A stretch of 64,000 nt of DNA from the NCBI GenBank assembly GCA_944474755.1, contig OX104112.1, forward strand, positions 51,596,774 to 51,660,773. Reading direction: 5' to 3'. The stretch comes from Limnoperna fortunei (lineage: Eukaryota; Mollusca; Bivalvia; Mytilida; Modiolidae). The translations under genes and the position numbers were made by a program. The notes below the pieces were generated by a model. That model searched no databases. It had not been told where the DNA came from and saw nothing but the letters and a program-made list of their open reading frames with translations. Position 1 is the stretch's first letter; every line of letters starts with the position of its first letter. Shown piece after piece: positions 1 through 62,026 of the stretch.

Positions 1-98
1 TTTTCTCTACTCACTAGTTTATATTTTGTAATAATACTATAATAATATTATAAATATTAGTCACATTCGGTATTGAAACATTTTTTCTTTTGTTTTAG

Positions 99-3000
99 TA
101 ACTCCAGTAAAGCAAGCTCCATCAAAAACAGGTATACATTCAGCTCTTAAGTTGTTTGTTTGTTTGTTTAAATGAGGTTTAACATAGTCCACTTTCAGCA
201 TTTGTGTTTAGTTATGTCCTGATGTCCAGTTTAGTTCGGAAAAAGCTCAATTGTACACGTAAACTTTATTGTACCACACTATGTAAGCACTGTACGTTAA
301 ATGGCTAAGTATTTCATGTTAACACAATACCGTTGCCTCATGTTGAAATTTATGTACAATTTAGAGAAGACTTGGATAGCACTTATTACTTACGTTTCTA
401 TCGTATAACTGTTGTTTTATTTCTGTACTAGTTATGTAGATATACATTGGCTAGCTATACAACCTTTACTCTACTCACTAGTTTAAATTTTATAATAGTA
501 CTTTTATAATATTATAAATATTAGTCACATTCGGTATTGAAACATTTTTTCTTTTGTTTTAGTCACTCCAGTAAAGCAAGCTCCATCAAAAACAGGTATA
601 CATTTAGCTCTTAAGTTGTTTGTTTGTTTTTTTAAATGAGGTTTAACATAGTCCACTTTCAGCATTTGTGTTTAGTTATGTCCTGATGTCTAGTTTAGTT
701 CGGAAAAAGCGCAATTGTACACGTTAACTTTATTGTACCACACTATGTAAACACTGTACGTTATATGGCTAAGTATTTCATGTTAACATGGTACTGTTGC
801 CTCATTTTGAAATTTACGTACAATTTAGAGAAGACTTGGAGAGCACTTATTACTTAAGTTTCTATCTTATAACTGTTGGTTTATTTCTGTACAATTTCTG
901 TGATATACATTGGATAGCTATACAACCTGTACTCTACTCAATCGTTTAAATTTTGTAATAGTACTATAATAATATTGTAAATATTAGTCACATTCGGTAT
1001 TGAAACATTTTTTCTTTTGTTTTTATTGACTCCAGAAAAGCAAGCTCCATTAAAAACGGGTAAACATTAAGCGTTTAGTTGTGTGTTTGTTTGTTTAAAT
1101 GATTGTTAATGTTGGCCATTTTCATCGATTTTTAGTTATATCATGATGTCCAGTTTAATGTGGGAACAAAACCTCAACCGTACATATAAGATTTGTTACA
1201 TAGTAGGTATTTATTACATTTGTAAAAGCCATGTAACATTTGTTACATGTCTTCTTCGTATGTAATATTTGTTTTTTTTTCCTATAGCATTTTAAATAGT
1301 CATAAATGTTATATAAGGTAGCAGTACTATGATAATTATCATATATAAAAAAAGTTTGTACATGTAAAAGCGGGCATAATTTGTAAAATCGTATTTCCTT
1401 AACAATATTTGTTCTAGTTTCTCCTATAACTTAAAACAATACGTAGTTAATTGACATAGTCTGGCTATACAACCTTTACTCTACTCTCTATTGTATGTTT
1501 TGTAATAGTATCATAATAATTGTATAAATATTAGTCACATTTGGTATTGAAACATTTTATCTTTTATTGACTCCGTAAAGCATTTTCCAAAAAAAACGGA
1601 TATACATTTAGCACTTAAGTTGTTTGTTTGTTTGTTTGCTTAAATGAGGTTTAACATAGTCCACTTTCAGCATTTGTGTTTAGTTATGTCCTGATGTCCA
1701 GTTTAGTTCGGAAAAAGCGCAATTGTACACGTAAACTTTATTGTACCACACTATGTAAATACTGTACGTTATATGGCTAAGTATTTCATGTTAACATGGT
1801 ACTGTTGCCTCATGTTGAAAATTACATACAATTTAGAGAAGACTTGGAGAGCACTTATTACTTAAGTTTCTATCTTATAACTGTTGTTTTATTTCTGTAC
1901 TATTTAAGTAGATATACATTGGCTAGCTATACAACCTTTACTCTACTCACTAGTTTAAATTTTATAATAGTACTTTAATAATATTATAAATATTAGTCAC
2001 ATTCGGTATTGAAACATTTTTTCTTTTGTTTTTGTAACTCCAGTAAAGCAAGCTCCATCAAAAACAGGTATACATTTAGCTCTTAAGTTGTTTGTTTGTT
2101 TGTTTGTTTAAATGAGGTTTAATATAGTCCACTTTCAGCATTTGTGTTTAGTTATGTCCTGCTGTCCAGTTTAGTTCAGAAAAAGCGCAATTGTACACGT
2201 AAACTTTATTGTACCACACTATGTAAACACTGTACGTTATATGGCTAAGTATTTCATCTTAACATGGTACTGTTGCCTCATGTTGAAAATTACGTACAAT
2301 TTAGAGAAGACTTGGAGAGCAATATTACTTAAGTTTCGATCTTATAACTGTTGTTTTATTTCTGTACTATTTATGTAGATATACATTGGCTAGCTATACA
2401 ACCTTTACTCTACTCACTAGTTTAAATTTTATAATAGTACTATAATAATATTATAAATATTAGTCACATTATGAATTGAAACATGTTTTCTTTTGTTTTA
2501 GTAACTCCAGGAAAGCAAGCTCCATCAAAAACAGGTATACATTTAGCTCTTAAGTTGTTTGTTTGTTTGTTTGTTTAAATGAGGTTTAACATAGTCCACT
2601 TTCAGCATTTGTGTTTAGTTATGTCCTGATGTCCAGTTTAGTTCGGAAAAAGCGCAATTGTACACTTGAACTTTATTGTACCACACTATGTAAACGCTGT
2701 ACGTTATATGGTTAAGTATTTCATGTTAACATGGTACTGTTGCCTCATGTTGAAAATTACGTACAATTTAGAGAAGACTTGGAGAGCAATATTACTTAAT
2801 AAGTTTCGATCTTATAACTGTTGTTTTATTTCTGTACTATTTATGTAGATACACATTGGCTAGCTATACAACCTTTACCCTACTCATTAGTTTTAATTTG
2901 ATAATAGTACTATAATAATATTATAAATATTAGTCACATTCGGTATTGAAACATGTTTTCTTTTGTTTTAGTCACTCCAGTAAGGCAAGCTCCATCAAAA

Positions 3001-6000
3001 ACAGGTATACATTTAGCTCTTAAGTTGTTTGTTTGTTTGTTTGTTTAAATGAGGTTTAACATAGTCCACTTTCAGCATTTGTGTTTAGTTATGTCCTACT
3101 GTCCAGTTTAGTTCGGAAAAAGCGGAATTGTACACGTAAACTTTATTGTACCACACTATGTAAACACTGTACGTTATATGGCTAAGTATTTCATGTTAAC
3201 ATGGTACTGTTGCCTCATGTTGAAAATTACGTACAATTTAGAGAAGACTTGGAGAGCACTTATTACTTAAGTTTCTATCTTATAACTGTTGTTTTATTTC
3301 TGTACTATTTATGTAGATATACATTGGGCTAGCTATACAACCTTTACTCTACTCACTAGTTTAAATTTTATAATAGTACAATAATAATATTATAAATGTT
3401 AGTCACATACGGTATTGAAACATTTTTTCTTTTGTTTTAGTCACTCCAGTAAAGCAAGCTCCATCAAAAACAGGTATACATTTAGCTCTTAAGTTGTTTG
3501 TTTGTTTGTTTGCTTAAATGAGGTTTGACATAGTCCACTTTCGGCATTTGTGTTTAGTTATGTCCTGATGTCCAGTTTAGTTCGGAAAAAGCGCAATTGT
3601 ACACGTTAACTTTATTGTACCACTCTATGTAAATGCTGTACGTTATATGGTTAAGTATTTCATGTTAACATGGTACTGTTGCCTCATGTTGAAAATTACG
3701 TACAATTTAGAGAAGACTTGGAGAGCAATATTACTTAAGTTTCGATCTTATAACTGTTGTTTTATTTCTGTACTATTTATGTAGATATACATTGGCTAGC
3801 TATACAACCTTTACTCTACTCACTAGTTTAAATTTATAATAGTACTATAATAATATTATAAATATTAGTCACATTCGGTATTGAAACATGTTTTCTTTTG
3901 TTTTAGTCACTGCAGTAAAGCAAGCTCCATCAAAAACAGGTATACATTTAGCTCTTAAGTTGTTTGTTTGTTTGTTTGTTTGTTTAAATGAGGTTTAACA
4001 TAGTCCAATTTCAGCATTTGTGTTTAGTTATGTCTTACTGTCCAGTTTAGTTCGGAAAAAGCGCAATTGTACACGTAAACTTTATTGTACCACACTATGT
4101 AAACACTGTACGTTATATGGCTAAGTATTTCATGTTAACATGGTACTGTTGCCTCATGTTGAAAATTACGTACAATTTAGAGAAGACTTGGAGAGCACTT
4201 ATTACTTAAGTTTCTATCTTATAACTGTTGTTTTATTTCTGTACTATTTATGTAGATATACATTGGCTAGCTATACAACCTTTACTCTACTCACTAGTTT
4301 AAAATTATAATAGTACTATAATAATATTATAAATATTAGTCACATTCGGTATTGAAACATTTCTTCTTTTGTTTTAGCTACTCCAGTAAAGCAAGCTCCA
4401 TCAAAAACAGGTATACATTTAGCTGTTAAGTTGTTTGTTTGTTTGTTTGTTTAAATGAGGTTTAACATAGTCCACTTTCAGCATTTGTGTTTAGTTATGT
4501 CCTGATGTCCAGTTTAGTTCGGAAAAAGCGCAATTGTACACGTAAACTTATTGTACCACACTATGTAAATACTGTACGTTATATGGCTAAGTTTTTCATG
4601 TTAACATGGTACTGTTGCCTCATGTTGAAAATTACGTACAATTTAGAGAAGACTTGGAGAGCACTTATTACTTAAGTTTCTATCTTATAACTGTTGTTTT
4701 ATTTCTGTACTATTTATGTAGATATACATTGGCTAGCTATACAACCTTTACTCTACTCACTAGTTTAAATTTTATAATAGTACTATAATAATATTATAAA
4801 TATTAGTCACATTCGGTATTGAAACATTTTTTCTTTTGTTTTAGTAACTCCAGTAAAGCAAGCTCCATCAAAAACAGGTATACATTTAGCTCTTAAGTTG
4901 TTTGTTTGTTTGTTTGCTTAAATGAGGTTTAACATAGTCCACTTTCAGCATTTGTGTTTAGTTATGTCCTGATGTCCAGTTTAGTTCGGAAAAAGCGCAA
5001 TTGTACACGTAAACTTTATTGTACCACACTATGTAAATACTGTACGTTATATGGCTAAGTTTTTCATGTTAACATGGTACTGTTGCCTCATGTTGAAAAT
5101 TACGTACAATTTAGAGAAGACTTGGAGAGCACTTATTACTTAAGTTTCTATCTTATAACTGTTGTTTTATTTCTGTACTATTTATGTAGATATACATTGG
5201 CTAGCTATACAACCTTTACTCTACTCACTAGTTTAAATTTTATAACAGTACTATAATAATATTATAAATATTAGTCACATTCTGTATTGAAACATTTTTT
5301 CTTTTGTTTTAGTCACTCCAGTAAAGCAAGCTCCATCAAAAACAGGTATACATTTAGCTGTTAAGTTGTTTGTTTGTTTGTTTCTTTTAATGAGGTTTAA
5401 CATAGTCCACTTTCAGCATTTGTGTTTAGTTATGTGCTGATGTCCAGTTTAGTTCGGAAAAAGCGCAATTGTACACGTAAACTTTATTGTACCACACTAT
5501 GTAAACACTGTACGTTATATGGTTAAGTATTCATGTTAACATGGTACTGTTGCCTCATGTTGAAAATTACGTACAATTTAGAGAAGACTTGGAGAGCACT
5601 TATTACTTAAGTTTATATCTTATAACTGTTGTTTTATTTCTGTACTATTTATGTAGATATACATTGGCTAGCTATACAACCTTTACTCTACTCACTAGTT
5701 TAAATTTTATAATAGTACTATAATTATAATATTATAAATATTAGTCATATTCGGTATTGAAACATTTTTTCTTTTGTTTTTGTAACTCCAGTAAAGCAAG
5801 CTCCATCAAAAACAGGTATACTTTTAGCTCTTAAGTTGTTTGTTTGTTTGTTTGTTTAAATGAGGTTTAACATAGTCCACTTTCAGCATTTGTGTTTAGT
5901 TATGTCCTGATGTCTAATTTAGTTCGGAAAAAGCGCAATTGTACACGTTAACTTTATTGTACCACACTATGTAAACACTACGTTATATGGCTAAGTATTT

Positions 6001-9000
6001 CATGTTAACATGGTACTGTTGCCTCATGTTGAAAATTACGTACAATTTAGAGAAGACTTGGAGAGCACTTATTACTTAAGTTTCCATCTTATAACTGTTG
6101 TTTTATTTCTGTACTATTTATGTAGATATACATTGGCTAGCTATACAACCTTTACTCTACTCACTGGTTTAAATTTTATAATAGTACTATAATATTATAA
6201 ATATTAGTCACATTCGGTATTGAAACATTTTTTTCTTTTGTTTTAGTCACTCCAGTAAAGCAAGCTCCATCAAAAACAGGTATACATTTAGCTCTTACGT
6301 TGTTTGTTTGTTTAAATGAGGTTTAACATAGTCCACTTTCAGCATTTGTGTTTAGTTATGTCCTGATGTCCAGTTTAGTTCGGAAAAAGCGCAATTGTAC
6401 ACTTGAACTTTATTGTACCACACTATGTAAACACTGTACATTATATGGTTAAGTATTTCATGTTAACATGGTACTGTTGCCTCATGTTGAAAATTACGTA
6501 CAATTTAGAGAAGACTTGGAGAGCAATATTACTTAAGTTTCGATCTTATAACTGTTGTTTTATTTCTGTACTATTTATGTAGATATACATTGGCTAGCTA
6601 TACAACGTTTACCCTACTCACTAGTTTAAATTTGATAATAGTACTATAATAATATTATAAATATTAGTCACATTCGGTATTGAAACATTTTTTCTTTTGT
6701 TTTAGTCACTCCAGTAAAGCAAGCTCCATCAAAAACAGGTATACATTTAGCTCTTAAGTTGTTTGTTTGTTTGTTTGCTTAAATGAGGTTTAACATAGTC
6801 CACTTTCAGCATTTGTGTTTAGTTATGTCCTGATGTCCAGTTTAGTTCGGAAAAAGCGCAATTGTACACGTTAACTGTATTGTACCACTCTATGTAAACG
6901 CTGTACGTTATATGGTTAAGTATTTCATGTTAACATGGTACTGTTGCCTCATGTTGAAAATTACGTACAATTTAGAGAAGACTTGGAGAGCAATATTACT
7001 TAAGTTTCGATCTTATAACTGTTGTTTTATTTCTGTACTATTTATGTAGATATACATTGGCTAGCTATACAACCTTTACTCTACTCACTAGTTTAAATTT
7101 GATAATAGTACTATAATAATATTATAAATATTAGTCACATTCGGTATTGAAACATTTTTTCTTTTGTTTTAGTCACTCCAGTAAAGCAAGCTCCATCAAA
7201 AACAGGTATACATTTAGCTCTTAAGTTGTTTGTTTGTTTGTTTGCTTAAATGACGTTTAACATAGTCCACTTTCAGCATTTGTGTTTAGTTATGTCCTGA
7301 TGTCCAGTTTAGTTCGGAAAAAGCGCAATTGTACACGTAAACTTTATTGTACCACACTATGTAAATACTGTACGTTATATGGCTAAGTATTTCATGTTAA
7401 CATGGTACTGTTGCCTCATGTTGAAAATTACGTACAATTTAGAGAAGACTTGGAGAGCACTTATTACTTAAGTTTCTATCTTATAACTGTTGTTTTATTT
7501 CTGTACTATTTATGTAGATATACATTGGCTAGCTATACAACCTTTACTCTACTCACTAGTTTAAATTTTATAACAGTACTATAATAATATTATAAATATT
7601 AGTCACATTCGGTATTGAAACATTTTTTCTTTTGTTTTAGTCACTCCAGTAAAGCAAGCTCCATCAAAAACAGGTATACATTTAGCTGTTAAGTTGTTTG
7701 TTTGTTTGTTTCTTTTAATGAGGTTTAACATAGTCCACTTTCAGCATTTGTGTTTAGTTATGTCCTGATGTCCAGTTTAGTTCGGAAAAAGCGCAATTGT
7801 ACACGTAAACTTTATTGTACCACACTATGTAAACACTGTACGTTATATGGTTAAGTATTCATGTTAACATGGTACTGTTGCCTCATGTTGAAAATTACGT
7901 ACAATTTAGAGAAGACTTGGAGAGCACTTATTACTTAAGTTTCTATCTTATAACTGTTGTTTTATTTCTGTACTATTTATGTAGATATACATTGGCTAGC
8001 TATACAACCTTTACTCTACTCACTAGTTTAAATTTTATAATAGTACTTTAATAATATTATAAATATTAGTCACATTCGGTATTGAAACATTTTTTCTTTT
8101 ATTTTTGTAACTCCAGTAAAGCAAGCTCCATCAAAAATAGGTATACTTTTAGCTCTTAAGTTGTTTGTTTGTTTGTTTGTTTGTTTAAATGAGGTTTAAC
8201 ATAGTCCACTTTCAGCATTTGTGTTTAGTTATGTCCTGATGTCTAATTTAGTTCGGAAAAAGCGCAATTGTACACGTTAACTTTATTGTACCACACTATG
8301 TAAACACTACGTTATATGGCTAAGTATTTAATGTTAACATGGTACTGTTGCCTCATGTTGAAAATTACGTACAATTTAGAGAAGACTTGGAGAGCACTTA
8401 TTACTTAAGTTTCTATCTTATAACTGTTGTTTTATTTCTGTACTATTTATGTAGATATACATTGGCTAGCTATACAACCTTTACTCTACTCACTGGTTTA
8501 AATTTTATAATAGTACTATAATATTATAAATATTAGTCACATTCGGTATTGAAACATTTTTTTCTTTTGTTTTAGTCACTCCAGTAAAGCAAGCTCCATC
8601 AAAAACAGGTATACATTTAGCTCTTACGTTGTTTGTTTGTTTAAATGAGGTTTAACATAGTCCACTTTCAGCATTTGTGTTTAGTTATGTCCTGATGTCC
8701 ATTTTAGTTCGGAAAAAGCGCAATTGTACACGTTAACTTTATTGTACCACTCTATGTAAACGCTGTACGTTAAATGGTTAAGTATTTCATGTTAACATGG
8801 TACTGTTGCCTCATGTTGAAAATTACGTACAATTTAGAGAAGACTTGGAGAGCAATATTACTTAAGTTTCGATCTTATAACTGTTGTTTTATTTCTGTAC
8901 TATTTATGTAGATATACATTGGCTAGCTATACAACCTTTACTCTACTCACTAGTTTAAATTTTATAATAGTACTAATAATATTATAAATATTAGTCACAT

Positions 9001-48000: not shown

Positions 48001-51000
48001 GTCATGGATGATTATTTATTGTGTCTATAAGTTTTCACAATCTGCTAAGTTAATTATTGAAGCTTTATTTTAAAGCATCTATTTGGTTTTAAAATTGTCC
48101 ATATAATATTTATTTGAATTAAGAAAGAACCAAAAAAATATATACATTAAATATGTCATTATCATAGTTAGCTTACATGTTTATAATTTATTTTAACCTT
48201 AAAAAAGAATTTCGAATTCTTAGCTTACATGTTTATAATTTATTTGAATCTTAAAAATAGAATTTTTAATTCTTAACTTTTTAAAAATCCATTCTTCATA
48301 TTATTTGATGCAACAATTTCAGTTTGCCAATTTAAAACTTTTTAAAATAATTTTATCACCCATTTAAATTTTTCCAATTGTTTTTACTCGCATAATGCAT
48401 AATTATCAATTTTTTAATGGTGCGGATCCATTGAATGAATGTGTGTAGTACTAAGAAAGACAACTCTAACATCAATTGAGCGTCAACAATAACAATGGCG
48501 GCAACGATATCGTCTGTGTCATTTTTGATACGAAAATTGCTTATTCTCATAAGAAAATTGACTCTACATAATTTTTGTTCGTTACATTTGATATTAAAGA
48601 GCTCTCGATGACAGATTAAACACCTGTGAACGGCAAATTATAATACACAACGGCGTAAATGCACATGGGTCACAACGATCGTAATGATAGTTTAAAAACA
48701 TTGCGAAAAAACGTAAGAAATTGACAATTTCTTCCAGTTTTATCACCCAGTTCATTAAATAAAGTATGCCGATTTAAAACTTGAAATGAAACTCACATTT
48801 CTGTAAAATTTGAGACCAATATCTGCATAAACTATCGAGATACGGACGTTTGTTTACAAACTTGATTTTTTTTTCGCGCACATGTCAAATTAATTCAGGT
48901 CAGGCAAACAGCGCGTGGAAATTTAAACCGGCGCTGTAAAGTCGCGGCAAAAAAAATCCAGTAATGAAAGTGTTAAGTTGTGTGTTTGTTTGTTTAAATG
49001 AGGTTTAACATAGTCCACTTTCAGCATTTGTGTTTAGTTATGTCCTGATGTCCAGTTTAGTTCGGAAAAAGCGCAAATGTACACGTAAACTTTATTGTAC
49101 CACACTATGTAAACACTGTACGTTATATGGCTAAGTATTTCATGTTAACATGGTACTGTTGCCTCATGTTGAAAATTACGTACAATTTAGAGAAGACTTG
49201 GAGAGCACTTATTACTTAAGTTTCTATCTTATAACTGTTGTTTTATTTCTGTACTATTTATGTAGATATACATTGGCTAGCTATACAACCTTTACTCTAC
49301 TCACTAGTTTAAATTTTATAATAGTACTATAAAAATATTATAAATATTAGTCACATTCGGTATTGAAACATGTTTTCTTTTGTTTTAGTCACTCCAGTAA
49401 AGCAAGCTCCATCAAAAACAGGTATACATTTAGCTCTTAAGTTGTTTGTTTGTTTGTTTGTTTAAATAAGGTTTAACATAGTCCACTATACATTTAGCTC
49501 TTAAGTTGTTTGTTTGTTTAAATGAGGTTTAACATAGTCCACTTTCAGCATTTGTGTTTAGTTATGTCCTGATGTCCAGTTTAGTTCGGAAAAAGCGCAA
49601 ATGTACACGTAAACTTTATTGTACCACACTATGTAAACACTGTACGTTATATGGCTAAGTATTTCATGTTAACATGGTACTGTTGCCTCATGTTGAAAAT
49701 TACGTACAATTTAGAGAAGACTTGTAGAGCAATATTACTTAAGTTTCTATCTTATAAAAGTTGTTTTATTTCTGTAATATTTATGTAGATATACATTGGC
49801 TAGCTATACAACCTTTACTCTACTCACTAGCTTATAATAGTACTATAATAAATAATATTATAAATATTAGTCACATTCGGTATTGAAACATTTTTTCTTT
49901 TGTTTTAGTCACTCCAGTAAAGCAAGCTCCATCAAAAACAGGTATACAATTATCTCTTAAGTTGTTTGTTTGTTTGTTTGTTTAAATGAGGTTTAACATA
50001 GTCCACTTTCAGCATTTGTGTTTAGTTATGTCCTGATGTCAAGTTTAGTTCGGAAAAAGAAAAGCGCAATTGTACACGTAAACTTTAATGTACCACACTA
50101 AGTAAACACTGTACGTTATATGTCTAAGTTTTTCATGTTAACATGGTACTGTTGCCTCATGTTGAAAATTACGTACAATTTAGAGAAGACTTGTAGAGCA
50201 CTTATTACTTAAGTTTCTATCTTATAACTGTTGGTTTATTTCTGTACTATTTCTGTGATATACATGGGCTAGCTATACAACCTGTACTCTACTCACTAGT
50301 TTAAATTTAATAATGACTTACTTGACTTATTTCCGTCTCTCCTTGAGGAGAATCGGGCCGTTAACAAGTCCTCTCCATTTTTCTCTCTCAGATGCCGCTC
50401 TTGTTGCTTCTGTCCAGGTACTGAAGCCAAGTTCTTTCCTTTCCTTTTCTATGGTCCTCCTCCAGGTCTCTTTTGGACGTCCTCTCTTTCTTTTACCATC
50501 TGGAGTCCATGTGAGTGCTATTTTTGCGTGTCTGCTGTTATCCAACCTGAGCACATGTCCAAGCCATTTCCACCTTCTTCTTCTGATAGTGTCACTGATC
50601 TTTTCACAACTAGCTTGTTTTCTTACTTCTTCATTTGTAACTTTTTGAGGCCAATATATTTTTAAAATTCTTCTTAAGCTCTTGTGTAGGAAGGTGTCCA
50701 GCATGTTTTCATCATTTTTAGTCATTTTCCAGGTTTCGCTTCCGTATAGAAGGACAGATATGACATTTGAGTTGAGCAGGCGGAACTTTGTTCTCTTTGA
50801 TAGTTGGCTGTTGTTCCAAATAGGTGCAAGTTTGTTGTACGTCATTTTTGCAAGGCCTAATCGTCTTCTGATATCTTCGTTTGTTCCGCCATTGGTTGTT
50901 ATCATAGCACCAAGATAGATGAAGGATTTGACGTCTTCGATTTCATTTCCATTGGTGCTGGTAATCGGTTGGTTGGTATTTGTGTTCAGTCTCATAACTT

Positions 51001-54000
51001 TTGTTTTTGATGCATTAATCTTGAGGCCGGTGGAATGGGCAAGATTGCTAACGTTATTAAACTTTCTTTGTAGTTGGTCTTTTGTGCTGGACAGGAGAGC
51101 TATGTCATCAGCGTAGTCTAGATCATCTAATTTGGTGGTAAAGTTCCATCGGATTCCTGTGTTGTTATCTGTTGTTGCCTTTCTCATGATCCAATTGATA
51201 ATCATGAGGAAGAGGAACCCAGACATGTTGCAGCCTTGTTTCACGCCTGATTTGATCTTAAACCAGTCTGATGTTCCACTGCTTGTTATGACTGCACATT
51301 CATTATCTTGGTACATACATCTTACTAGGTTGAGCAGTTTGCCAGGGATACCATATTGTTTCATTATCTTCCATAATGACTCTTGATGTACACTGTCAAA
51401 TGCTTTTTCAAAATCAATGAAACATAGATATAGGTTGGAATTCCATTCGACAGTTTGCTCAATGATGTTCCTGAGAGTAAAGATCTGTTCTGTTGTACCT
51501 CGTCCTTCTCGGAAAACTGCCTGTTCTTCTCTTAGATGTTTATTTACCTCATCTGCTATTCTCTTAATAATAATTTTGCCTAATATTTTGGATGTAGTTG
51601 GAATCAGTGTAATACCCCTCCAGTTTCCACAGCATGTCAGGTCCCCTTTCTTAGGCAATTTGACAATGAGTCCTCTTTTCCAATCAGATGGTATCTTTTC
51701 CTCAATCCATGCTCTTGTTAGAATTTTATGGATCTGTTTTGTGGCAGTTTCTTGATCAGCTCTAAGTAGTTCGCTGGTAATGTTGTCTATTCCAGGTGAT
51801 TTACCATTCTTAAGTTCTCTTATTATAGTTCTTATTTCGTTAAATGTTGGACATTCTATATTGATGGGCAATGTTTCATTTCCAGCAGTGATGATCTCTG
51901 CTGGTTCTGGTGGTTCTGGTCTGTTAAGAACCTCGTTAAAATGCTCTTGCCATCTTGCTTTAACTTCACATTCCATTGTCAGTAGTGTACCGTTTTTATC
52001 TTTTATGTGTTCTATCTGTTTTGGTCTTTCCTTACAAAGTGTTCTTGTTATGTCATACACTGCTTTCATGTTTCCCTTACTGGCCGCTGTTTCGGCTTCA
52101 GTTGCGATATCTTCATACCATTTTTTCTTGTCCTTTTTCATGTTCTTTTTCACTTCTTTGTCTTTAGTGCTATATTGTTGTCTTAGTTTTTCTTTTACCC
52201 TTTCAGATCTTGTTCCGTCTATTTTATTTTTCATTGATCTTCTTTCCTCAACCAGTTTCCAGCTGTTAACACTTATCCATTCTTGGTTAGCCTTCTTTCT
52301 AGGACCAATGATGTTTTGAGCTGTTTCGTTGTATATGTTTTTGAATTGCATCCATTGGCCGTCTATGTCTAGTTCTTCTGTATCAGTAAGGACGCTAAAT
52401 CTATTTCTTAGTTCTAAAGAAAATGTTTCTTTTATTTCAGGAATTTTAAGTTTGCATGATTCATATCTTTTTGATGTTACTTCCTTTTTTTGCACTCTGT
52501 GAAGCTTGAGTTTTAGTTTGGCCACTAGCAAATTATGGTCGCTTCCTACATCAGCTCCTCTCATGGCTCTCACGTCGTATACAGATCTTTTAAATTTTCC
52601 ATTAATTGCCATGTGGTCTATTTGGTTATTATGTTGGTTGTTAGGTGACGTCCATGTTTGGAGATGTATGTCTTTGTGTGGAAACATGGTTGTTGTAATG
52701 GCTAAGTTGTTCAGGCCACAAAAGGATACAAACTTCTCCCCGTTGTCATTTCTTTCACATTTAAGTCCAAACCTTCCTACTATCCCCACTTCGCCTTCTA
52801 GTTTGGTTCCAACTTTTGCATTGATGTCACCCATGAGGAGGATTATGTCGTGACGTGGTGTTTTGTCAATGGCTTTTTGTAGCTGTTCATAAAAACTTTC
52901 TTTGTCTTCCTCCTCTGCCTCATTTGTGGGTGCGTATACCTGTATGACTGTTGTTTTAATGTACCTTGACCAGAATCTGGCTGTTATAATGCGCTCACTG
53001 ATTGGGGTCCATTCATAAAGTGACTTGGTTGCTTCTTTAGTCAGCAATGACGGTTATCTGCTCTTCCAGAATAAATGATGGTTTCACCGGTTTGAGTGAT
53101 GATCTTTCCTGAACCTATCCATCTACACTCACTTATTCCTAAGATGTCCAGTCTATACTTTCTCATTTCATTCATTACCTGTGCAGTTTTGCCAGTGGCA
53201 TACATGGTTCGGACGTTCCATGTCCCTATTCTCCTGATGATCTTAGGGTTGGCAAGTGTATCCTTCGGCATGTGGACTTCAGTTAAGCTTTCATCCCCAT
53301 GCGTCATAGTAACATCGCTCAAAGGTGTTGAGGCTTGTTGGATACCTGGCCTTCCCTTTCTTTTATCTTTCGACTTGTTATTTATGGTTTCCGTAATCAT
53401 ATTTTTTTTCAAGGTGAGGTGATTAGTCTAACGCTCAACCTAGTACCTCCAGGTTCGTGTTTTCTTTTAGGGTTTTCTTTCCCTTAGACGACTGCAATGC
53501 CATTGCTAACGAACTCCATCTGTCCGGATTTTCTTTCTGGGTTGTCTCCCATAGCCTTTGACCTGCCATGGTCATCCACAAGGCAGTGGAGCTATTTAAC
53601 CCATAGTTGGGGCAGGTTGGTGAGAACCAGGGCATATCCACACACCGGTGGGCCTGCACTCTGCACCTCTGGGGTCCTTGCTACTCCGAGATCCCCTTCA
53701 ATTCAGCCTTGAGTATAGACCCAAGTTACCGTGTGTTGCCACGAGGAGGCGATTGAAGGAGTCTTGATAGTGTAGAGGCTATGTACTGACAGGGAAAGAT
53801 TTACGCACTCGACTCTCCTTTTCACCTACAAGTAGGCTAGTCAGCGACAACAGAGATCTAGAGACGTTCGAACTCTGCCATACTAGACGCATATCACTAC
53901 CCTGTGGTATTTCTACCACTAACACACAAAATTTAATAATAGTACTATAATAATATTGTAAATATTAGTCACATTCGGTATTGAAACATTTTTTCTTTTG

Positions 54001-57000
54001 TTTTAGTCACTCCAGTAAAGCAAGCTCCATCAAAAACATGTATACATTTATCTCTTAAGTTGTTTGTTTGTTTAAATGAGGTTTAACATAGTCCACTTTC
54101 AGCATTTGTGTTTAGTTATGTCCTGATGTCCAGTTTAGTTCGGAAAAAGCGCAATTGTACACGTAAACTTTATTGTACCACACTATGTAAACACTGTACG
54201 TTATATGGCTAAGTTTTTCATGTTAACATGGTACTGTTGCCTCATGTTGAAAATTACGTACAATTTAGAGGAAACTTGGAGAGCACTTATTACTTAAGTT
54301 TCTATCTTATAACTGTTTTTTTATTTCTGTATTATTTCTGTGATATACATTGGCTAGCTATACAACCTGTACTCTACCTACTAGCTTAAATTTAATAATA
54401 TTACTATAATAATATTGTAAATATTAGTCACATTCGGTATTGAAACATTTTTTCTTTTGTTTTTATTGACTCCAGAAAAGCAAGCTCCATCAAAAACGGG
54501 TAAACATTAAGCGTTTAGTCGTGTGTTTGTTTGTTTAAATGATTGTAAATGTGGGCCATTTTCATCGATTTTTAGTTATATTATGATGTCCAGTTTAATG
54601 TGGGAAACAAAATCTCAACCATACATATAAGATTTGTTACATTGTAGGTAATTATTACATTTGTAAAAGCCATGTAACATGTCTTCTTGATATATAATAT
54701 TTTGGTTTTTTTTGTTTCCTATAGCATTTAAAATAGTCATAAGTGTTATGTATGATAGCACTTCTATAATAATTATCATATATAAAATAAGTTTGTATAT
54801 GTAAAAGCCAGGCATAATTTGTAAAATCGTATTTACATAACAATATTTGTTCTAGTTTCTCCTATAATTTAAAACAATAGGTAGTTAATTGACAGCGTCT
54901 GGCTATACAACCTTTACTCTACTCTCTATTGTATGTTTTGTAATAGTATCATAATAATTGTATAAATATTAGTCACATCTGGTATTGAAACATTTTATCT
55001 TTTGCTTTTAGTGACTCCTGTAAAGCATTATCCAGAAAAAACGGGTATACATTGAGCTCTTAAGTTGTTTCTTTGTTTGTTTGTTTAAATGAGGTTTAAC
55101 ATAGTCCACGTCTAGCATTTTTGTTTAGTTATGTCATGATGTCCAGTTTAGTTCGGAAAAAGCTCAATTGTACACGTAAACTTTATTGTACCACACTATG
55201 TAAACACTGTACGTTATATGGCTAAGTATTTCATGTTAACATGGTACTGTTGCCTCATGTTAAAAATTACGTACAATTTAGAGAAGACTTAGAGACTTAA
55301 GTTTCTATCTTATAACTGTTGGTTTATTTCTGTACTATTTCTGTGATATACATTGGCTAGCTATACAACCTGTACTCTACTCACTAGTTTAAATTTAATA
55401 ATAGTACTGTAATAATATTGTAAATATTAGTCACATTCGGTATTGAAACATTTTTTTTTGGTTTTTAGTGACTCCAGTAAAGCAAGCTCCATCAAAAACG
55501 GGTTAACATTAAGCGTTTAGTTGTATGTTTGTTTGTTTAAATGATTGTAAACGTGGACCGTTTTCATCGATTTTTAGTTATATCATGATGTCCAATTGAA
55601 TGTGGGAAACAAAACCTCAACCGTACATATAAGATTTGTGACAGTGTAGGTAATTATTACATTTGTGAAAGCCATGCAACATTTGTTATATGTCTTCTTG
55701 ATATATAATATTTGTTTTTTTGTTTCCTATAGCATTTAAAATAGTCATAAATGTTATGTAAGGTAGCATTACTATGATAATTATTATATATAAAAAATTT
55801 GTACACCTATGTAAAAGTCAGGCTGATTTGTAAAATCATATTTGCTTCACAATATAGGTTCTAGTTTCTCCTATAGCTTAAAACAATAGGTCATTAATTG
55901 ACATAGTCTGGCTAAACAACCTGTATTCTACTCTCTATTGTAAGTTTTGTAATAGTATCATAATAATTGTATAAATATAAGTCACATTCGGTATTGAAAC
56001 ATTTTTTCTTTTGTTTTTAGTGATTCCAGCAGAGCAAGCTGTATCAAAAACGGGTAAACATAAAGCGCTTTAGTTGTGTGTTTGTTTGTTAAAATGGTGT
56101 TTTAACGTGGGCTATTTTCATAATTTTTTCAGTTATATCATGATGTCCAGTTTAATACGAGAAACAAAATCCTCAACTGTACATATAAAAATTTATGTTA
56201 TAGTGTAGGTAATTGTTACATTTGTAAAAATCCATGCAACATGTGTTACATAGTGTTTCCTATAGCATTAAAAATAGTCATTAATTTTATGTAAGTAACA
56301 TTTCTATGATAATCAAAAGCATAATTTGTAAAATCGTATTTGCTTTACAAATTTGTTCTACTTTCTCCTATAGCTTAAAACAAATAAGTCGTTAATTGTA
56401 TGTAAAGTAACTTTAGTATAATAATCAAGCTACTTTATAATGTATGTAACTTTATTTGTGTGAAATGATATAAAGCATGACATTGTCAAGCTATACAATC
56501 TTAAATCTTCTCTCTAGTTTAATTTTGTAATAGTACCAGAATAATATTATAAATAAATTATAGTCAAATTCCGTGTTTATTTATTTTTATTTTTTTTTTT
56601 GCTTTTAGCGACTCCCGTAAAGCAATATCCAGCAAAAAAGGGTATATATTAAGCTCTTAAGTTGTTTGTTTGTTTAAATGAAGTTTAACGTAGTCCGCTT
56701 TCAGCATTTGTGTTCAGTTATGTCATGATTTCAGGTTTAGTTCGGGAAAAGTCCAATTGTACATGTAAACTTTATTATACCACACTAAGTAGACACTGTA
56801 CTTTATATGGCTAAGTATTTCATGTTAACATGGTACTGGTGCCTCATGTTGAAAGTCCCATACAATTTAGAGAAGACGTGGAGAGCACTTATTACTTAAG
56901 ATTCTATCTTATAACACTAACTGTTGGTTTATTTCTGTTCTATTTATGTAGATATAAATTGGCCAGCTATACAATCTTTACTCACTAGATTAAATTTTAT

Positions 57001-58425
57001 AATAGTACTATAATAATATTAAAAATATTAGTTACATTCGCTATTGAAACATCTTTACTTTTTCTTTTAATGACTCCGGTAAAGCAAGCTCCATCAAAAA
57101 CGGGTAACCATTAAGGGCTTTAGTTGTGTGTTTATTTATTTAAATGAGTTTAAACGTGGGCCATTTTCATCGATTTTTAGTTATATCATGATGTCCAGTT
57201 TAATGCGAAAAGCAAAAATCCCCAACTGTACATGTAAAATTTATGTTACAGTGTAGTTAGTTATTAAATTTGTAAAAGTCAAGACAAATTTGGTACATAA
57301 CTTTTTTTAATTAAAAAATTTTGTTTTAGTTTTTTCTATAGGATAAACAAATATTCATACATTTTATGTAGAATAACATTACTACTATAATTCTCCGATT
57401 CCAATGTATGTTACGCTCTTAATGTGTGAAAGCCAGGGATAATACGTAAATCTTGTTTTCTATATACTATTTGTTCTTATTTCTCCTATCACTTACATAA
57501 ATAAGTCGTTAATTGTTTGGAAAGATACTAAGTATCATAATGAAGCTACTTTCAACGTATGTAACTGTATTTGTTTAGAATGACAGTTTCTTATCGATTC
57601 TTACCAACGTAAAAATCGCAGAAGTCCGCAATGGGCGGGTTGCACACCAAGCGCCGTAATAAATAAGTAAGGGGATGGTTTACAATTGTTAGATAAAGGT
57701 TGGGTCTGTGTAAAAAAATGTAGGAGTTGGTTACACAAAATAGGTACCGTTATGCAAATACATGTATTCTAAAAAAACGAATAAGTTCCCGCGAGAGGAA
57801 ACACTTGTGAAATGTCAAATCTCTGCGTTTTTCTTCAATAGTAATAGTTTTAACTCGGAGGATATATACTGTACATTTTGGGTTTGTGAAATTTTCTTTT
57901 ATCATCGACACAATGAATTTGGCAATATGCCTATCTTTACAATTTATATGAACAGTATTTGGGGATTAAATTTTGTTTGTTTTTCTGTAAGGAGAAGCCG
58001 TTAGGAAAGTGACAGCAAAGACAGGTGAGAATTTAGTACTTTACAAATTTTACATAATGTACGTTTTTAGATGATAAAGTGGTTTTAACTAATGGTTTTT
58101 TTCGTTCATTTTCTAGAAAAATTAATCCATTTTTTGTCTGCTTTCACTCTTTCATATAATAAAGCACAGATGGTTAGATACGAATTAATCACAAATAGAA
58201 CTGTCACATCAAGTTTGATTTTGTTATATAAGGCAAGTGCTATATTCCTTATGCATCATAAATGAACTCTTTACATATTTGCTCGGCCTCTTAAAATAGA
58301 TTTCCAATTTCTTGATTTGAAAGTGCAGTAAACTATAGAATTTTGCAATATTCCTGTATAGGAATTAAAGCTATATCAACTTTTCATTTTAGAACAAGTT
58401 GTAACGAAAGTTTTAGCAAAAACAG
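99..58425 (+). CDS. Partial gene built from about 100 tandem 33-nt micro-exons, 11-residue repeat VTPVKQAPSKT
   Basis: Each array unit has one 33-nt block after a polypyrimidine tract ending in TTTTAG and before a GTATAC donor. Read as phase-1 exons (last base G plus the next exon's first two bases), the blocks join into VTPVKQAPSKT repeats. One other frame is also open in the core exons, but it meets TAG inside exon 57992; the third frame has TAA in nearly every exon. Most differences fall on third codon positions (GTC/GTA/GTT, CCA/CCT/CCC/CCG, ACA/ACG, AAA/AAG). I count 102 exon sites, of which 90 keep AG and GT. Introns are about 430 bp. The first and last exons of the gene, a promoter and a poly(A) site are not in the window. 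The repeat is basic, rich in P, V, K and T, with no Cys or aromatic residues, so probably extended or disordered. A PEVK-like elastic segment or an extracellular repeat protein is possible, but that is speculation. A satellite without coding function is the main alternative. Confidence 0.7.
1027..1059 (+). pseudogene. Micro-exon with lost acceptor, long-intron type
   Basis: Thirty-three nt ending in ACGG before GTAAAC, reading VTPEKQAPLKT in the array's phase. The expected TTTTAG is TTTTAT, so the exon is probably skipped. Its following intron (about 510 bp) contains sequence absent from the core units, including GTAAACATTAAGCG and a CCTATAG region, and matches the intron after 54467. It is therefore a copy of the older long unit type. 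Confidence 0.75.
1568..1599 (+). pseudogene. Broken micro-exon, 32 nt, no acceptor or donor
   Basis: Relative to 55012 this copy has lost one base (CTCC-GTAAAG), its acceptor is AT, and the donor GGTATAC has become GGATATAC. All three lesions would prevent in-frame splicing. It is the counterpart of the intact 55012 exon, following a long-type unit just as 55012 does. Confidence 0.75.
6165..13600 (+). repeat. Two 8-unit, 3,718-bp blocks in tandem within the micro-exon array
   Basis: Exon starts 6247, 6706, 7173, 7641, 8108, 8576, 9033 and 9501 recur 3,718 bp later at 9965, 10424, 10891, 11359, 11826, 12294, 12751 and 13219. The two blocks share rare private variants: a TG acceptor plus an ATA (Ile) codon in 8108 and 11826, ACAT at the exon end in 9033 and 12751, and a TCTTTTAATG change after the GTTT tract. 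Only a few bases differ, so the duplication is recent. Block edges are approximate, near 6165, 9883 and 13600. Confidence 0.9.
14496..14825 (+). repeat. 165-bp tandem duplication inside one array intron
   Basis: The segment starting TGTACCACACTATG at 14496 is repeated in tandem at 14661. The duplication lies wholly within the intron after exon 14325. Because 165 is a multiple of three it fuses two chance open frames into a 153-codon frame, which I do not regard as a gene. Confidence 0.85.
22840..22872 (+). pseudogene. Micro-exon with lost donor beside piggyBac element A
   Basis: Acceptor TTTTAG is intact and the body reads VTPVKQAPSKT, but the junction is AACATTTATAC where others have AACAGGTATAC, so no GT donor remains. 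Element A is inserted 15 bp further on. Either the mutation came first or the interrupted exon was released from constraint; the sequence cannot say which. Confidence 0.75.
22892..22999 (-). repeat. 3' terminal region of piggyBac-like element A
   Basis: Starts CACTTTCATTACTGAATT, then a T run and CGCG, and further in has CTGAATTAATTAG and CATGTGC. The inverted right end of element B (48972 leftward) has the same order: CACTTTCATTACTGG, T run, CGCG, CTGAATTAATTTG, CATGTGC. The two elements thus share a 3' end although their 5' ends differ. Confidence 0.7.
23802..23819. repeat. AT dinucleotide microsatellite
   Basis: An uninterrupted run of about nine AT dinucleotides inside element A, flanked by T-rich sequence. 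Confidence 0.9.
24190..25348 (-). pseudogene. Decayed piggyBac-type transposase (element A)
   Basis: Reading the - strand from 25348: a YWSTDSFLNTP segment followed by ILRYLHFSN, typical of the piggyBac DDE domain; then DESMIPLKG (about 25050-25078), the first catalytic Asp motif, with a stop soon after; then HICTDKFFTTP, with the second catalytic Asp at 24862-24864; then TTWKDKKSAYVLST; then NMPGVYNADQYIQYY, where the expected third Asp of GVD is Tyr (codon 24621-24623); finally HLCLPKCF, part of the C-terminal Cys-rich domain. Several frameshifts and stops separate these pieces and the N-terminal part is not recognisable. The enzyme would have cut and pasted DNA at TTAA; this copy cannot. 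Family knowledge supplies the motif roles; the breaks are seen directly. Confidence 0.85.
26341..26424. promoter_or_regulatory. Three 16-bp sites at 34-bp spacing near the 5' end of element A
   Basis: GTATCCTTAAGGATAC at 26341-26356 is a perfect palindrome. GGTGCCTAAAGGATAC occurs at 26375-26390 and again at 26409-26424, each exactly 34 bp on, keeping one half of the palindrome. By position these are likely transposase-binding sites; that role is inference. Confidence 0.6.
41312..41344 (+). pseudogene. Micro-exon with GG donor
   Basis: The body is standard but the exon is followed by GGATAC instead of GTATAC. The same lesion occurs in exon 43639-43671, which is its copy in the 2,327-bp duplication, so the defect predates that duplication. 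Confidence 0.75.
43639..43671 (+). pseudogene. Micro-exon with GG donor, duplicate copy
   Basis: Same GGATAC donor defect as exon 41312, found at the matching place of the next 5-unit block. Confidence 0.75.
45018..45035 (+). CDS. Shortened 18-nt micro-exon
   Basis: Acceptor TTTTAG and donor GTATAC are intact, but 15 nt in the middle are missing, leaving coding for VTPSKT. The deletion is a multiple of three, so phase is kept and the exon could still be spliced in frame. Such a short exon may be recognised poorly. Confidence 0.65.
45531..45614. promoter_or_regulatory. Three 16-bp palindromes at 34-bp spacing near the 5' end of element B
   Basis: GATGCCTGGAGGCATC (45531), GATGCCTTGAGGCATC (45565) and GATGCCTCCAGGCATC (45599) are separated by CGCCTGTCACGCGCCGGAC-type spacers. 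Arms are identical and only the four central bases vary. The same array is at 60854, 60888 and 60922 in the related fragment. A role as transposase-binding sites is inferred. Confidence 0.75.
46190..47871 (+). pseudogene. Broken piggyBac-type transposase (element B)
   Basis: The start at 46190 gives MSESSDDEFEGFSIDEV, the usual acidic N-terminus. A stop at 46316-46318 interrupts it; the same frame continues to 46921 with YWSTDCLATPYF and RDRFQQIILHFSD. After FIPKRQVCV the expected segment with the first catalytic Asp (DE-x-M-x-x-FKGR) is missing and the reading resumes in another frame at MPAKPSKWGIKLWAL, so a deletion of roughly 30-50 nt removed it. The second Asp (YMDNFFTSP, 47107-47109) and third Asp (NMGGADKCDQY, 47416-47418) remain. 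Frameshifts lie at the A run 47219-47228 and near 47325-47345. The C-terminus has a Cys-rich zinc-binding-like domain (CHVC, CMDC, HLCLPKC). Length matches the family at about 560 codons. It should be inactive. Confidence 0.9.
48880..48972 (+). repeat. 3' terminal region of piggyBac-like element B
   Basis: Read from 48972 inward it has CACTTTCATTACTGG, a T run, CGCG, CTGAATTAATTTG and CATGTGC, in the same order as the left end of element A. It is GC-richer than the surrounding AT-rich element. Confidence 0.7.
48973..50314 (+). repeat. Micro-exon array between element B and the LINE (2 exons)
   Basis: Exons start at 49389 and 49909, both 33 nt with AG and GT and reading VTPVKQAPSKT. Near 49485-49550 about 60 bp of intron (ACATTTAGCTCTTAAG to TAGTCCACT) are repeated in tandem. 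The intron after 49909 is interrupted by the LINE at 50315. Confidence 0.88.
50327..53047 (-). pseudogene. LINE endonuclease (C-terminal part) and reverse transcriptase
   Basis: An open frame of about 906 codons ending at TAA (50327-50329). It has no natural ATG at its 5' end because it is the downstream part of a frame broken near 53045. Endonuclease motifs are GDINAKVG (about residues 73-80) and SDHNLL (169-174). Reverse transcriptase motifs are NWRGITLIP (475-483), FIDFEKAFDS (543-552), GVKQGCNMSG (601-610) and the catalytic YADD (645-648). The C-terminus has RRRRWKWLGHVLRLD and a KRKRGRPKETW basic stretch common in this LINE group. It would nick target DNA and copy the element's RNA at the nick. 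The long intact frame points to recent activity of the family, though this copy is disabled by the upstream frameshift. Confidence 0.9.
53041..53412 (-). pseudogene. LINE endonuclease, N-terminal part
   Basis: Begins MKKNMITETINNKSKD at 53412 and carries GTWNVRTMYATGKTAQV and LDILGISECRW, the first endonuclease motifs (catalytic N and E). It ends with SGRADNRHC and a stop at 53041-53043, just where the next frame begins with LLTKEATKSLYEW. Related elements usually have a few Gly/Val/Ala/Leu residues at this joint, so a deletion of about 16 nt is the likely cause of the frameshift. Together with the following frame it makes one protein of about 1,030 residues. Confidence 0.85.
53413..53928 (-). 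other. LINE 5' region with a small open frame
   Basis: About 516 bases upstream of the endonuclease start. A 74-codon frame (53659-53435, MQAHRCVDMPWFSPTCPNYG...) ends 22 bases before the main start, in a different frame. It could be a remnant of a first open frame or chance; no known domain is visible. The rest looks like 5' untranslated sequence. Confidence 0.4.
54007..54039 (+). CDS. Micro-exon with T at its last base
   Basis: A standard VTPVKQAPSKT body, but the exon ends ACAT before GTATAC where others end ACAG. Exons 9033, 12751 and 14948 share this. If spliced, the next repeat would begin with Leu or Phe in place of Val. Confidence 0.6.
54467..54499 (+). pseudogene. Long-type micro-exon with AT acceptor
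   Basis: Reads VTPEKQAPSKT in phase and ends ACGG before GTAAAC. The acceptor is TTTTAT, the same defect as in exon 1027, which shares its long intron; the two are copies of one ancestral defective unit. Confidence 0.75.
55012..55044 (+). CDS. Diverged micro-exon VTPVKHYPEKT
   Basis: Thirty-three nt between GCTTTTAG and GTATAC. Relative to the consensus the middle reads KHYPEK; frame, length and both splice sites are kept. Confidence 0.75.
55469..55501 (+). CDS. Micro-exon VTPVKQAPSKT, long-intron type
   Basis: Thirty-three nt between GTTTTTAG and GTTAAC. The AG acceptor is intact, unlike the related exons 1027 and 54467. Confidence 0.75.
56021..56053 (+). CDS. Diverged micro-exon VIPAEQAVSKT
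   Basis: Thirty-three nt between GTTTTTAG and GTAAAC, with four amino-acid changes from the consensus but phase and splice sites kept. Confidence 0.72.
56609..56641 (+). CDS. Diverged micro-exon ATPVKQYPAKK
   Basis: Thirty-three nt between GCTTTTAG and GTATAT, with a long T run before the acceptor. Like 55012 it has Tyr-Pro in the middle, so the two form an older subtype. Confidence 0.75.
57071..57103 (+). pseudogene. Micro-exon with AA acceptor
   Basis: The body reads VTPVKQAPSKT and the donor is GTAACC, but the acceptor is TTTTAA. Probably skipped unless another AG is used. Confidence 0.65.
57104..57991 (+). other. Intron, first part related to the array, remainder unique
   Basis: The first 400 bases still resemble long-type array introns (GTTTAAACGTGGGCC, ATCATGATGTCCAG). 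From about 57580 no array similarity is visible. No convincing gene or RNA is seen; an 80-codon open frame here runs through the acceptor of exon 57992 and looks accidental. Confidence 0.6.
57992..58024 (+). CDS. Diverged micro-exon GEAVRKVTAKT
   Basis: Thirty-three nt between TTTTCTGTAAG and a strong donor GTGAGA. Flanking introns share nothing with the array units, yet length and phase match, and the end AKT plus G matches the repeat end. In this exon only the array's coding phase is open: the alternative frame contains TAG. It is therefore the key exon for fixing the reading frame. Confidence 0.72.
58025..58392 (+). other. Unique intron
   Basis: About 370 bases between exons 57992 and 58393, AT-rich, starting GTGAGA and ending TTCATTTTAG. 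No other feature seen. Confidence 0.6.
58393..58425 (+). CDS. Diverged micro-exon EQVVTKVLAKT, last one seen
   Basis: Thirty-three nt between TTCATTTTAG and a consensus donor GTAAGA. It resembles exon 57992 (V-x-K-V-x-AKT) more than the core repeat. The strong donor means the gene should go on, but I find no further exon of this type before the window end. Confidence 0.72.
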
Positions 58426-58886: not shown

Positions 58887-58993
58887 ATCAAAATTACCAA
58901 AATTAATCATTTAGAGTTAAACGCCACTGATGAGTCTTAAGTAGACGAAACGCGCGTCTGGCGTAATGAATTTGTCACCTTGGTAATTTTGAT
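58887..58993 (+). repeat. 14-bp inverted repeat enclosing a hammerhead ribozyme
   Basis: ATCAAAATTACCAA at 58887-58900 is exactly complementary to TTGGTAATTTTGAT at 58980-58993. The arms enclose 79 bases with the ribozyme in the middle, so the whole may be one small element or a fold that presents the ribozyme. Confidence 0.75.
58921..58964 (+). ncRNA. Minimal hammerhead ribozyme
   Basis: All core parts are present in order. Stem I is ACGCCA (58921-58926) with TGGCGT (58959-58964). Then comes CTGATGA (58927-58933); stem II GTCT/AGAC with loop TAAGT (58934-58946); GAAA (58947-58950); a stem III of self-complementary CGCGCG with no real loop; and the GTC cleavage site ending at 58958. Short hammerheads with such a tiny stem III are known in animal retroelement repeats and can act as dimers, pairing stem III between two molecules. 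Bivalve genomes are known to carry many. The core is seen directly; activity is not shown. Confidence 0.82.
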
Positions 58994-59761: not shown

Positions 59762-59841
59762 TCAGTCAGATCAGTCAAATCGTTTCCAATTCATCCATCC
59801 GTCAATTGACGGATTTGGAACGATTTGACTGATCTGACTGA
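59762..59841. repeat. Long hairpin with a central palindrome
   Basis: TCAGTCAGATCAGTCAAATC... at 59762-59789 pairs with 59815-59841 over about 27 bp with one bulged base. Between the arms lies a perfect 16-bp palindrome, TCCGTCAATTGACGGA (59798-59813). In the second copy (about 62908-62978) part of the right arm is deleted. Confidence 0.85.
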
Positions 59842-59849
59842 TCATAGAA

Positions 59850-60252
59850 GGACATGACCAAGCAGATTTGTTCTGATCAGAATAATCCCTGATTTGTTTT
59901 TGAGCATAACTGTCTGTTTGATCTATGATGTATTGTAATGAATTGTCTGTTAGAAAGAGCTGAAAAAAGTCAACAGGTTCTTTTTCTGGAGCAATAATTG
60001 TTTGTGGTCCAGTATTTTGCCTAGGTGTAAAGATATGGGGGAAACCTCTCTCGAAGTAATTAAAATGTTCGTGCCACCCATCGTTGTTGGGGGCGTCGCC
60101 GGCATTGTTTACATTAAAAGTTCACTTTCTACATCGCTGATCTCAAAATCGTCACCTATGACATTTTGGGCTAATATTTGGCGATACCGTTCACTAGCTT
60201 AATTAACTTCTATTGAAAACCCTTCAAATTCATCGTCAGAACTTTCGGACAT
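59850..60252 (-). pseudogene. N-terminal fragment of piggyBac-type transposase (copy 1)
   Basis: The - strand from 60252 reads MSESSDDEFEGFSIEVN, then a TAA stop where element B has CAA (Gln), then ASERYRQILAQN and an acidic stretch, GWHEHFNYFERG and EKEPVDFFQL, ending after NKSAWSC. A 22-bp deletion, relative to copy 2, lies after the GDAPNNDGW-encoding region's upstream neighbour near 60117. The catalytic domain is absent. Confidence 0.8.
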
Positions 60253-61356: not shown

Positions 61357-61590
61357 TTAACACTTTCGGAACGAATGTATGCTTTATGAAACACAATGCG
61401 CAGGGCGAATGTATCTGTAAAGATACACTCTGCGCAGGGCGAATGTATCTTTAAAGATACACTGTGTTCAGGGCAAATGATACATGAAACTCGTGGTTTG
61501 ATTAGGCCTGTTTTGAAGCCAAAACCGCCGAACAAAAATGTAAGTGACGAGGATTTCGATGGATTTTTACACATCACAATTGAGAAATGA
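61357..61590 (+). mobile_element. 5' terminus of another piggyBac-like family
   Basis: TTAA at 61357-61360 is followed by CACTTTCGGAACGAATG. Then GTATCTGTAAAGATAC (61411-61426) and the perfect palindrome GTATCTTTAAAGATAC (61445-61460) lie 34 bp apart within repeats of GCGCAGGGCGAATGTATCT. At about 61541 an ATG-like start leads to SDEDFDGF, close to the SDDEFEGF start of element B, with a stop at 61588. So this looks like a terminus, leader and first codons of a third family, cut short. The far end is not identified. Confidence 0.55.
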
Positions 61591-61954: not shown

Positions 61955-62026
61955 TTAACCCTTTCCTCCATAATGACGCCTTTTGACGCCTACCCCTTTA
62001 CTCCATAATGACGCCTTTTGACGCCT
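61955..62026 (+). mobile_element. 5' terminus of a fourth piggyBac-like family
   Basis: TTAA (61955-61958) is followed by CCCTTTCCTCCATAATGACG, like the CCCTTTCC end of element B. GACGCCTTTTGACGCC occurs at 61975-61990 and again at 62010-62025, 35 bp apart, within a duplicated CTCCATAATGACGCC block. No transposase is recognised downstream and the other end was not found. Confidence 0.5.

Follow-up and report, generated by a model that had tools for sequence, protein, structure and literature searches.

Among the closest described systems is titin, whose exons are on the whole longer than the 33-nt blocks considered here and have diverged from one another. In the portion of the titin literature drawn on here, the PEVK region comprises 113 annotated exons in human and 99 in mouse, blocks of these exons are tandemly duplicated with LINE elements helping, and the PEVK_Finder tool uses a ratio threshold of 0.54 (PMC6469411). 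The locus described below lies in a 64,000-nucleotide stretch of the Limnoperna fortunei genome (hereafter the window; contig OX104112.1, positions 51,596,774 to 51,660,773 of the forward strand), and it resembles titin PEVK, as outlined in that portion, in its row of about 100 short exon-shaped blocks and its tandem duplication, and perhaps in its Pro/Val/Lys make-up. The P+V+K content of the mussel repeat VTPVKQAPSKT is 6/11 (0.545), just above the PEVK_Finder threshold, and the PEVK fraction is 6/11 for EQVVTKVLAKT and 5/11 for GEAVRKVTAKT, the peptides of two single-copy blocks. The mussel locus differs from titin PEVK in the near-identity of block and intron from copy to copy, in the 33-nt block length, and in the scarcity of Glu, which makes up 0.4% of the predicted chain.

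The exons of schistosome micro-exon genes (MEGs) are symmetric, about 6–36 bp in length, and mostly differ from each other. Tandemly repeated exons coding for an 81-base repeat were reportedly found in Schistosoma mansoni by Davis in 1988 (antigen 10-3, MEG-4). Short repeat peptides, small repeated exons and differences in copy number are also known from frog skin genes (the caerulein precursors and integumentary mucins), which have fewer copies and other sequences than the mussel array. As far as the accessible text of the schistosome reports goes, MEGs carry many very small exons per gene and give rise to splice variants by exon skipping (PMC4015677), and small repeated exons are a feature common to the MEGs and the 81-base tandem exons (PMC4015677, PMC3723592). 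The mussel blocks are likewise small and symmetric, a likeness that implies no homology; unlike MEG exons, they are near-identical and present in about 90 copies. With the satellite DNA of bivalves, as portrayed in the literature excerpts at hand, the array shares head-to-tail homogenised units found alongside transposons, yet its unit carries an exon-shaped block, and older relatives of that block occur as single copies with matching orientation and frame. No comparable array in a bivalve was found among the matches listed in the open-licence literature, as represented by titles and the beginnings of abstracts. The initial annotation knew of no array this regular with exons this small; this holds in part, in view of the 113 exons of titin PEVK and the 81-base Schistosoma exons, as far as the excerpts of those sources reach, and it is right in that near-identity of exon and intron together at 33 nt is unusual. 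The locus, known here from the array sequence, is assigned to neither the titin PEVK nor the schistosome MEG class, and what appears to be new is a matter of degree: about 90 copies in which a putative exon of 33 nt and its intron are both near-identical from copy to copy.

The window is AT-rich and dominated by a 467-bp unit repeated head to tail, with a GC content of about 0.30 in the array. Each unit contains one 33-nt exon-shaped block on the plus strand, preceded by a T-rich tract ending in TTTTAG and followed by GT. TRF reported arrays of this unit at 1464–14174, 14661–22891 and 26446–45514, and further copies are spread between the left edge and 57.2 kb. TRF, nhmmer and the block list together delimit a first stretch at 1–14178 (blocks 99 to 14142), with diverged copies lying at 1027 and about 1567, and a second at 14236–22891 (blocks 14325 to 22840), within which lies a local 165-bp duplication (14496–14826). 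A third stretch at 26442–45514 (TRF and nhmmer; blocks 26856 to 45463) contains an 18-nt block (45018–45035), and further array units were located by pattern scan and nhmmer at 48971–50314 (blocks 49389 and 49909); all four stretches read on the plus strand. The first unit is truncated by the left edge of the window, and so the array probably extends leftward beyond it, as had been proposed.

Between 99 and 58425, a consensus scan followed by inspection gave 101 exon-shaped blocks: 98 of 33 nt from the ungapped consensus scan, the 18-nt block at 45018, and the diverged blocks at 57992 and 58393. The degenerate block near 1567, which has lost both AG and GT, is outside this count. Both dinucleotides are intact in 90 of the 101 blocks, the AG being broken in seven (1027, 2035, 5783, 8108, 11826, 54467 and 57071) and the GT in four (14142, 22840, 41312 and 43639). 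The initial annotation had counted 102 sites, 90 of them with both dinucleotides; the recount upholds the second figure and lowers the first by one. The strict pattern TTTTAG-N33-GT has 87 matches on the plus strand of the window, two of which (22661 and 58071) are chance matches in other sequence, and none on the minus strand. A minus-strand reading was rejected, since that strand has no such match and its open reading frames are scattered.

When the 90 intact blocks are joined, they form 2955 nt or 985 codons of a VTPVKQAPSKT-type repeat without a stop in phase 1, in agreement with the approximately 985 residues announced earlier. The claimed symmetric phase 1 also holds, for the 33-nt blocks and for the 18-nt variant, an in-frame 15-nt deletion that keeps the frame. 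The second frame of the same chain contains one stop and the third 110; an open phase 1 is by itself little proof, because the second frame is nearly as free of stops. The array presents at once what is expected of tandem exons, i.e., repeated blocks with AG and GT (90/101) and one phase free of stops, and what is expected of a satellite, i.e., homogenised head-to-tail units (467 bp, mean distance 0.0345, n=85).

The explanation we favour is that an old series of 33-nt exons existed at this locus, that one of these exons was recently amplified together with its intron, and that many of the copies are joined in the mRNA; we hold it to be evenly poised between right and wrong. The main reasons for seeing a real gene here lie outside the array, in two old single-copy blocks and in the conservation of older copies. 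The two blocks, at 57992–58024 and 58393–58425 on the plus strand, are exactly 33 nt long, in phase 1, provided with good splice sites, and both end in AKT. The first is a candidate exon for GEAVRKVTAKT with the donor CAG/GTGAGA, and the second, the last block found in the window, a candidate exon for EQVVTKVLAKT with the donor CAG/GTAAGA; the acceptor of the first reads TGTAAG rather than TTTTAG. Three non-array stretches (13.9 kb, plus strand) were scanned for exon candidates of 24–99 nt in steps of 3, and these two were the sole sequences to pass the splice-site and frame limits. A set of 300 dinucleotide shuffles averaged 1.21 candidates per shuffle across all lengths and 0.05 at 33 nt; none of the shuffles had two or more 33-nt candidates, and no 33-nt candidate ended in KT. 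The limits were set after the two blocks had been seen, which makes this chance estimate somewhat generous. A control of 20.8 kb, composed of minus strands and the retrotransposon, yielded three candidates of 93, 45 and 39 nt, none of them 33 nt.

The flanks of the two blocks mostly no longer match the array, although the sequence at 57.31–57.58 kb still matches the second of two kinds of intron present in the older units. The best match between the blocks themselves, 72% identical over 76 bases, begins about 12 bases ahead of the block and ends about 31 bases past it. The older, diverged units were delimited at 53803–57249 (plus strand) by nhmmer, a pairwise table and the aligned copies, and contain blocks at 54007, 54467, 55012, 55469, 56021, 56609 and 57071, the AG being broken in 54467 and 57071. 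Blocks 54467 to 57071 sit between the two intron kinds, which are about 60–65% alike without gaps and occur in a roughly 1-kb pattern. From this pattern it may be supposed that an exon-plus-intron unit doubled before the recent amplification.

Conservation among older copies was assessed with eight of 11 aligned sequences, leaving aside 1027 and 54467 as near-copies and 54007 as cut by the retrotransposon; the degenerate copy near 1567 lies outside this 11-sequence alignment. The block is free of gaps in all eight copies (seven older and one from the array) and has an identity of 0.683 vs. a mean of 0.548 outside it, a value reached by five of 379 block-free windows. Among the five most diverged copies, seven of 371 windows match the identity of the block, among three copies six of 375, and between the two oldest one of 402. 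In the eight-copy alignment, conservation over 33 columns peaks in a window that begins eight columns inside the block. Single pairs can show none of this: between the array unit and 56021, 160 of 538 windows do as well as the block, and between 56021 and 56609, 214 of 538 do. Of the three frames, phase 1 alone lacks stops throughout the nine blocks tested. The initial annotation spoke of a gene region, and the two old single-copy blocks and the older copies support this. A separate stretch of the intron, 19–50 nt upstream of the block (e.g., 3857–3888; array consensus TATAAATATTAGTCACATTCGGTATTGAAACA), is conserved well from one intron kind to the other, more weakly at 56609, and not in the two oldest copies; it could contain the branch point or a splicing enhancer.

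Within the young array, conservation of the block and of its splice sites does not exceed that of the intron, and there is no sign of constraint. This was assessed in 85 of 108 nhmmer hits, in which the unit model was covered from position 5 or lower to at least 460, regardless of their splice sites. Per site, the block has a substitution rate of 0.0160 and the windows average 0.0198, 178 of the 435 windows being no higher than the block; one unit has an indel in the block, and 145 of 435 windows are as low in this respect. The AG is retained in 81 of the 85 units, the GT in 83 and both in 79, and arbitrary intron dinucleotides, conserved at a mean of 0.952 each, match this retention. The suggestion that about 100 micro-exons are in use thus finds no backing in the array, whose block substitution and indel rates fall within the range of intron windows. 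Purifying selection was not detected in nine blocks (pN/pS 0.89; no third-position excess, permutation p 0.60), in a test whose power, like that of the array comparison, is low (33 sites, young copies), and another frame gives a ratio of 0.89 as well. The array donor CAG/GTATAC has a six-base match to U1 (−7.2 kcal/mol), and four other older copies pair with −4.9 to −7.6 kcal/mol, whereas the two oldest blocks have eight-base matches of −11.0 and −11.1 kcal/mol. Given this weaker pairing of the array donors, inclusion of the array blocks may be partial.

In a second explanation, the 467-bp unit spread as an intronic satellite bearing an exon, within an ordinary gene that has a few 33-nt exons, and most copies are skipped or rarely included on account of weak donors and are tolerated as frame-neutral. 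The intron-like evolution of block and splice sites within the array, the weaker array donor, the lack of detectable codon-level constraint, the absence of a matching protein in the length ranges searched (see below), and the satellite-like duplication of multi-unit blocks all argue for it. On the other side, both dinucleotides are present in 79 of the 85 full units, and the 84 blocks in these units that measure 33 nt are without exception open in phase 1; the latter weighs little, because just five of 96 single changes in the block would yield a stop. A block that combines AG, a T-rich tract and pairing with U1 over six bases should, in addition, see at least partial use. We regard such a satellite as a serious possibility, somewhat short of an even one. 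The evidence for use of the whole array is weak, and the chances that most blocks enter the mRNA are about even.

Seventy of the 85 full units are distinct, and the mean pairwise distance is 0.0345. The closest relative is most often found eight units off (22 units) or five units off (20 units; 42 of 85 together). A 3.7-kb stretch recurs 3718 bases (eight units) further on with one mismatch, and a 2.6-kb stretch recurs 2327 bases (five units) further on, again with one mismatch, a pattern suggestive of unequal exchange or duplication of blocks in the recent past. Three insertions split array units, and those units therefore predate them. The first (22892–26441, no strand assigned) lies inside the intron of a unit, where the nhmmer match ends at position 270 of the model and picks up again at 268, and has TTAA at both ends. 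The second (45515–48970, plus strand) is a piggyBac-type transposon at a TTAA of the unit's intron, with TTAA ends and matches to DDE_Tnp_1_7 in the open reading frames 46319–46921 and 47242–47871. Both insertions (ends at 22888–22891 and 45511–45514) are at the same TTAA in two copies of the unit, the array thereby multiplying the target site. The third (50315–53802, minus strand, antisense to the blocks) carries a non-LTR-type reverse transcriptase frame at 50327–53053 (RVT_1, E 5.5e-36); a tRNA call inside this retrotransposon was taken as spurious.

For the frame 46319–46921, the first part of a transposase, the database contains 17 relatives with E no higher than 1e-5 (eight named Mytilus, one Pecten, one beetle and seven without an organism name), the best being from Mytilus coruscus with 66% identity, which points to a mytilid mussel as host. 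Frame pieces resembling it occur on the minus strand at 59771–60121 and 63083–63352. Palindromic 34-base repeats are found near 45529 and 60853, and other short tandem repeats with 34- and 35-base units at 61372–61479 and 61959–62026, the first of which holds the palindrome ATCTTTAAAGAT. Just 3′ of the last 33-nt block, at 58921–58964 on the plus strand, there is a type I hammerhead ribozyme (39 bits vs. a gathering score of 34). It fits a mytilid host, since in the available part of one study the Mytilus galloprovincialis genome is reported to contain about 5000 such ribozymes, and the one seen here is perhaps part of a retrozyme like those of mussels (PMC7229834).

The three large insertions, together with a broken splice site in 11 of the 101 blocks (including the three diverged ones at 1027, 54467 and 57071), would also suit a dead gene, i.e., a whole region in decay whose old and new exons are no longer transcribed. 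The two oldest blocks have nevertheless kept strong donors and open frames, although their introns have mostly lost similarity, and we consider this explanation improbable. Still less credible is an assembly artefact in which wrongly duplicated contig pieces inflate the copy number, since the 3.7-kb and 2.6-kb stretches repeated with one mismatch each would fit it, yet 70 of 85 full units are distinct at a mean pairwise distance of 0.0345 and three large insertions interrupt the array, so that some copies would be affected at most.

The predicted chain of 985 residues contains 18% each of Lys, Thr and Pro, 17% Val and 0.4% Glu, with a net charge of about +176, and its composition suggests that the product is probably an extended, basic, unstructured tract that would act as a spacer or spring. 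No relative was found in two protein searches covering about 212–674 aa and 578–1839 aa, in each of which about 8000 candidates were scored; the database includes Mytilus proteins, and a titin-like protein longer than 1839 aa would lie outside these length ranges. The search at about 212–674 aa returned 24 proteins at E up to 1, whose match was taken, by judgement, as convergence of low-complexity repeats. Three of these (P0001–P0003) are bacterial-looking and have an 11-residue repeat of their own, of the KTVANGWQNPS type and apparently independent, and P0004 is a named Parasutterella protein. The search at 578–1839 aa gave one hit, at E 0.88 and with 42% of residues identical across 10% of the query. 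Of the four proteins compared with Pfam, a joined piece of 99 residues had three matches, all below the cut-off and set aside, the best being Mucin-like PF16058 with 21.9 vs. 28.7 bits. An exact scan for 35 block bases had no match in viral contigs and none in genome contigs, in collections that are not meant for animals.

Returning to the old exon series with one recently amplified member, we infer a plus-strand gene of a mytilid mussel of which the window would cover only a middle part. Its history would have begun with a series of 33-nt phase-1 exons, each contributing a single 11-residue repeat. An exon, together with its intron, would then have doubled, giving rise to the two intron types about 1 kb apart, of which one kind subsequently spread. 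A single 467-bp exon-plus-intron unit would have multiplied until about 90 copies existed, in part through duplication of blocks of four to eight units. Splicing of the pre-mRNA would join many of the 33-nt exons in frame, and the product would contain a long, unstructured, strongly basic Pro/Lys/Val/Thr segment serving as a spacer or spring. The length of this segment would be set by copy number and by exon choice, in steps of 11 residues and with the frame intact. In its boldest form, every one of the near-identical 33-nt exons, about 90 here and probably others beyond the left edge, would be spliced in to give a tract of about 1000 residues or more, which would differ in length between individuals through satellite-type unequal exchange and between tissues through exon skipping, in effect a protein spring adjusted by an exon-plus-intron satellite; this is somewhat less likely than not.

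Exon definition is strained when an exon measures just 33 nt, and if about 90 near-identical ones, separated by near-identical introns, were joined in order, the locus would be a natural test of splice-site pairing. Were the copies skipped instead, it would be a clean case of a satellite with a silent exon. If the favoured reading is true, satellite-type exchange would alter a mussel protein in exact 11-residue steps, leaving its reading frame undamaged.
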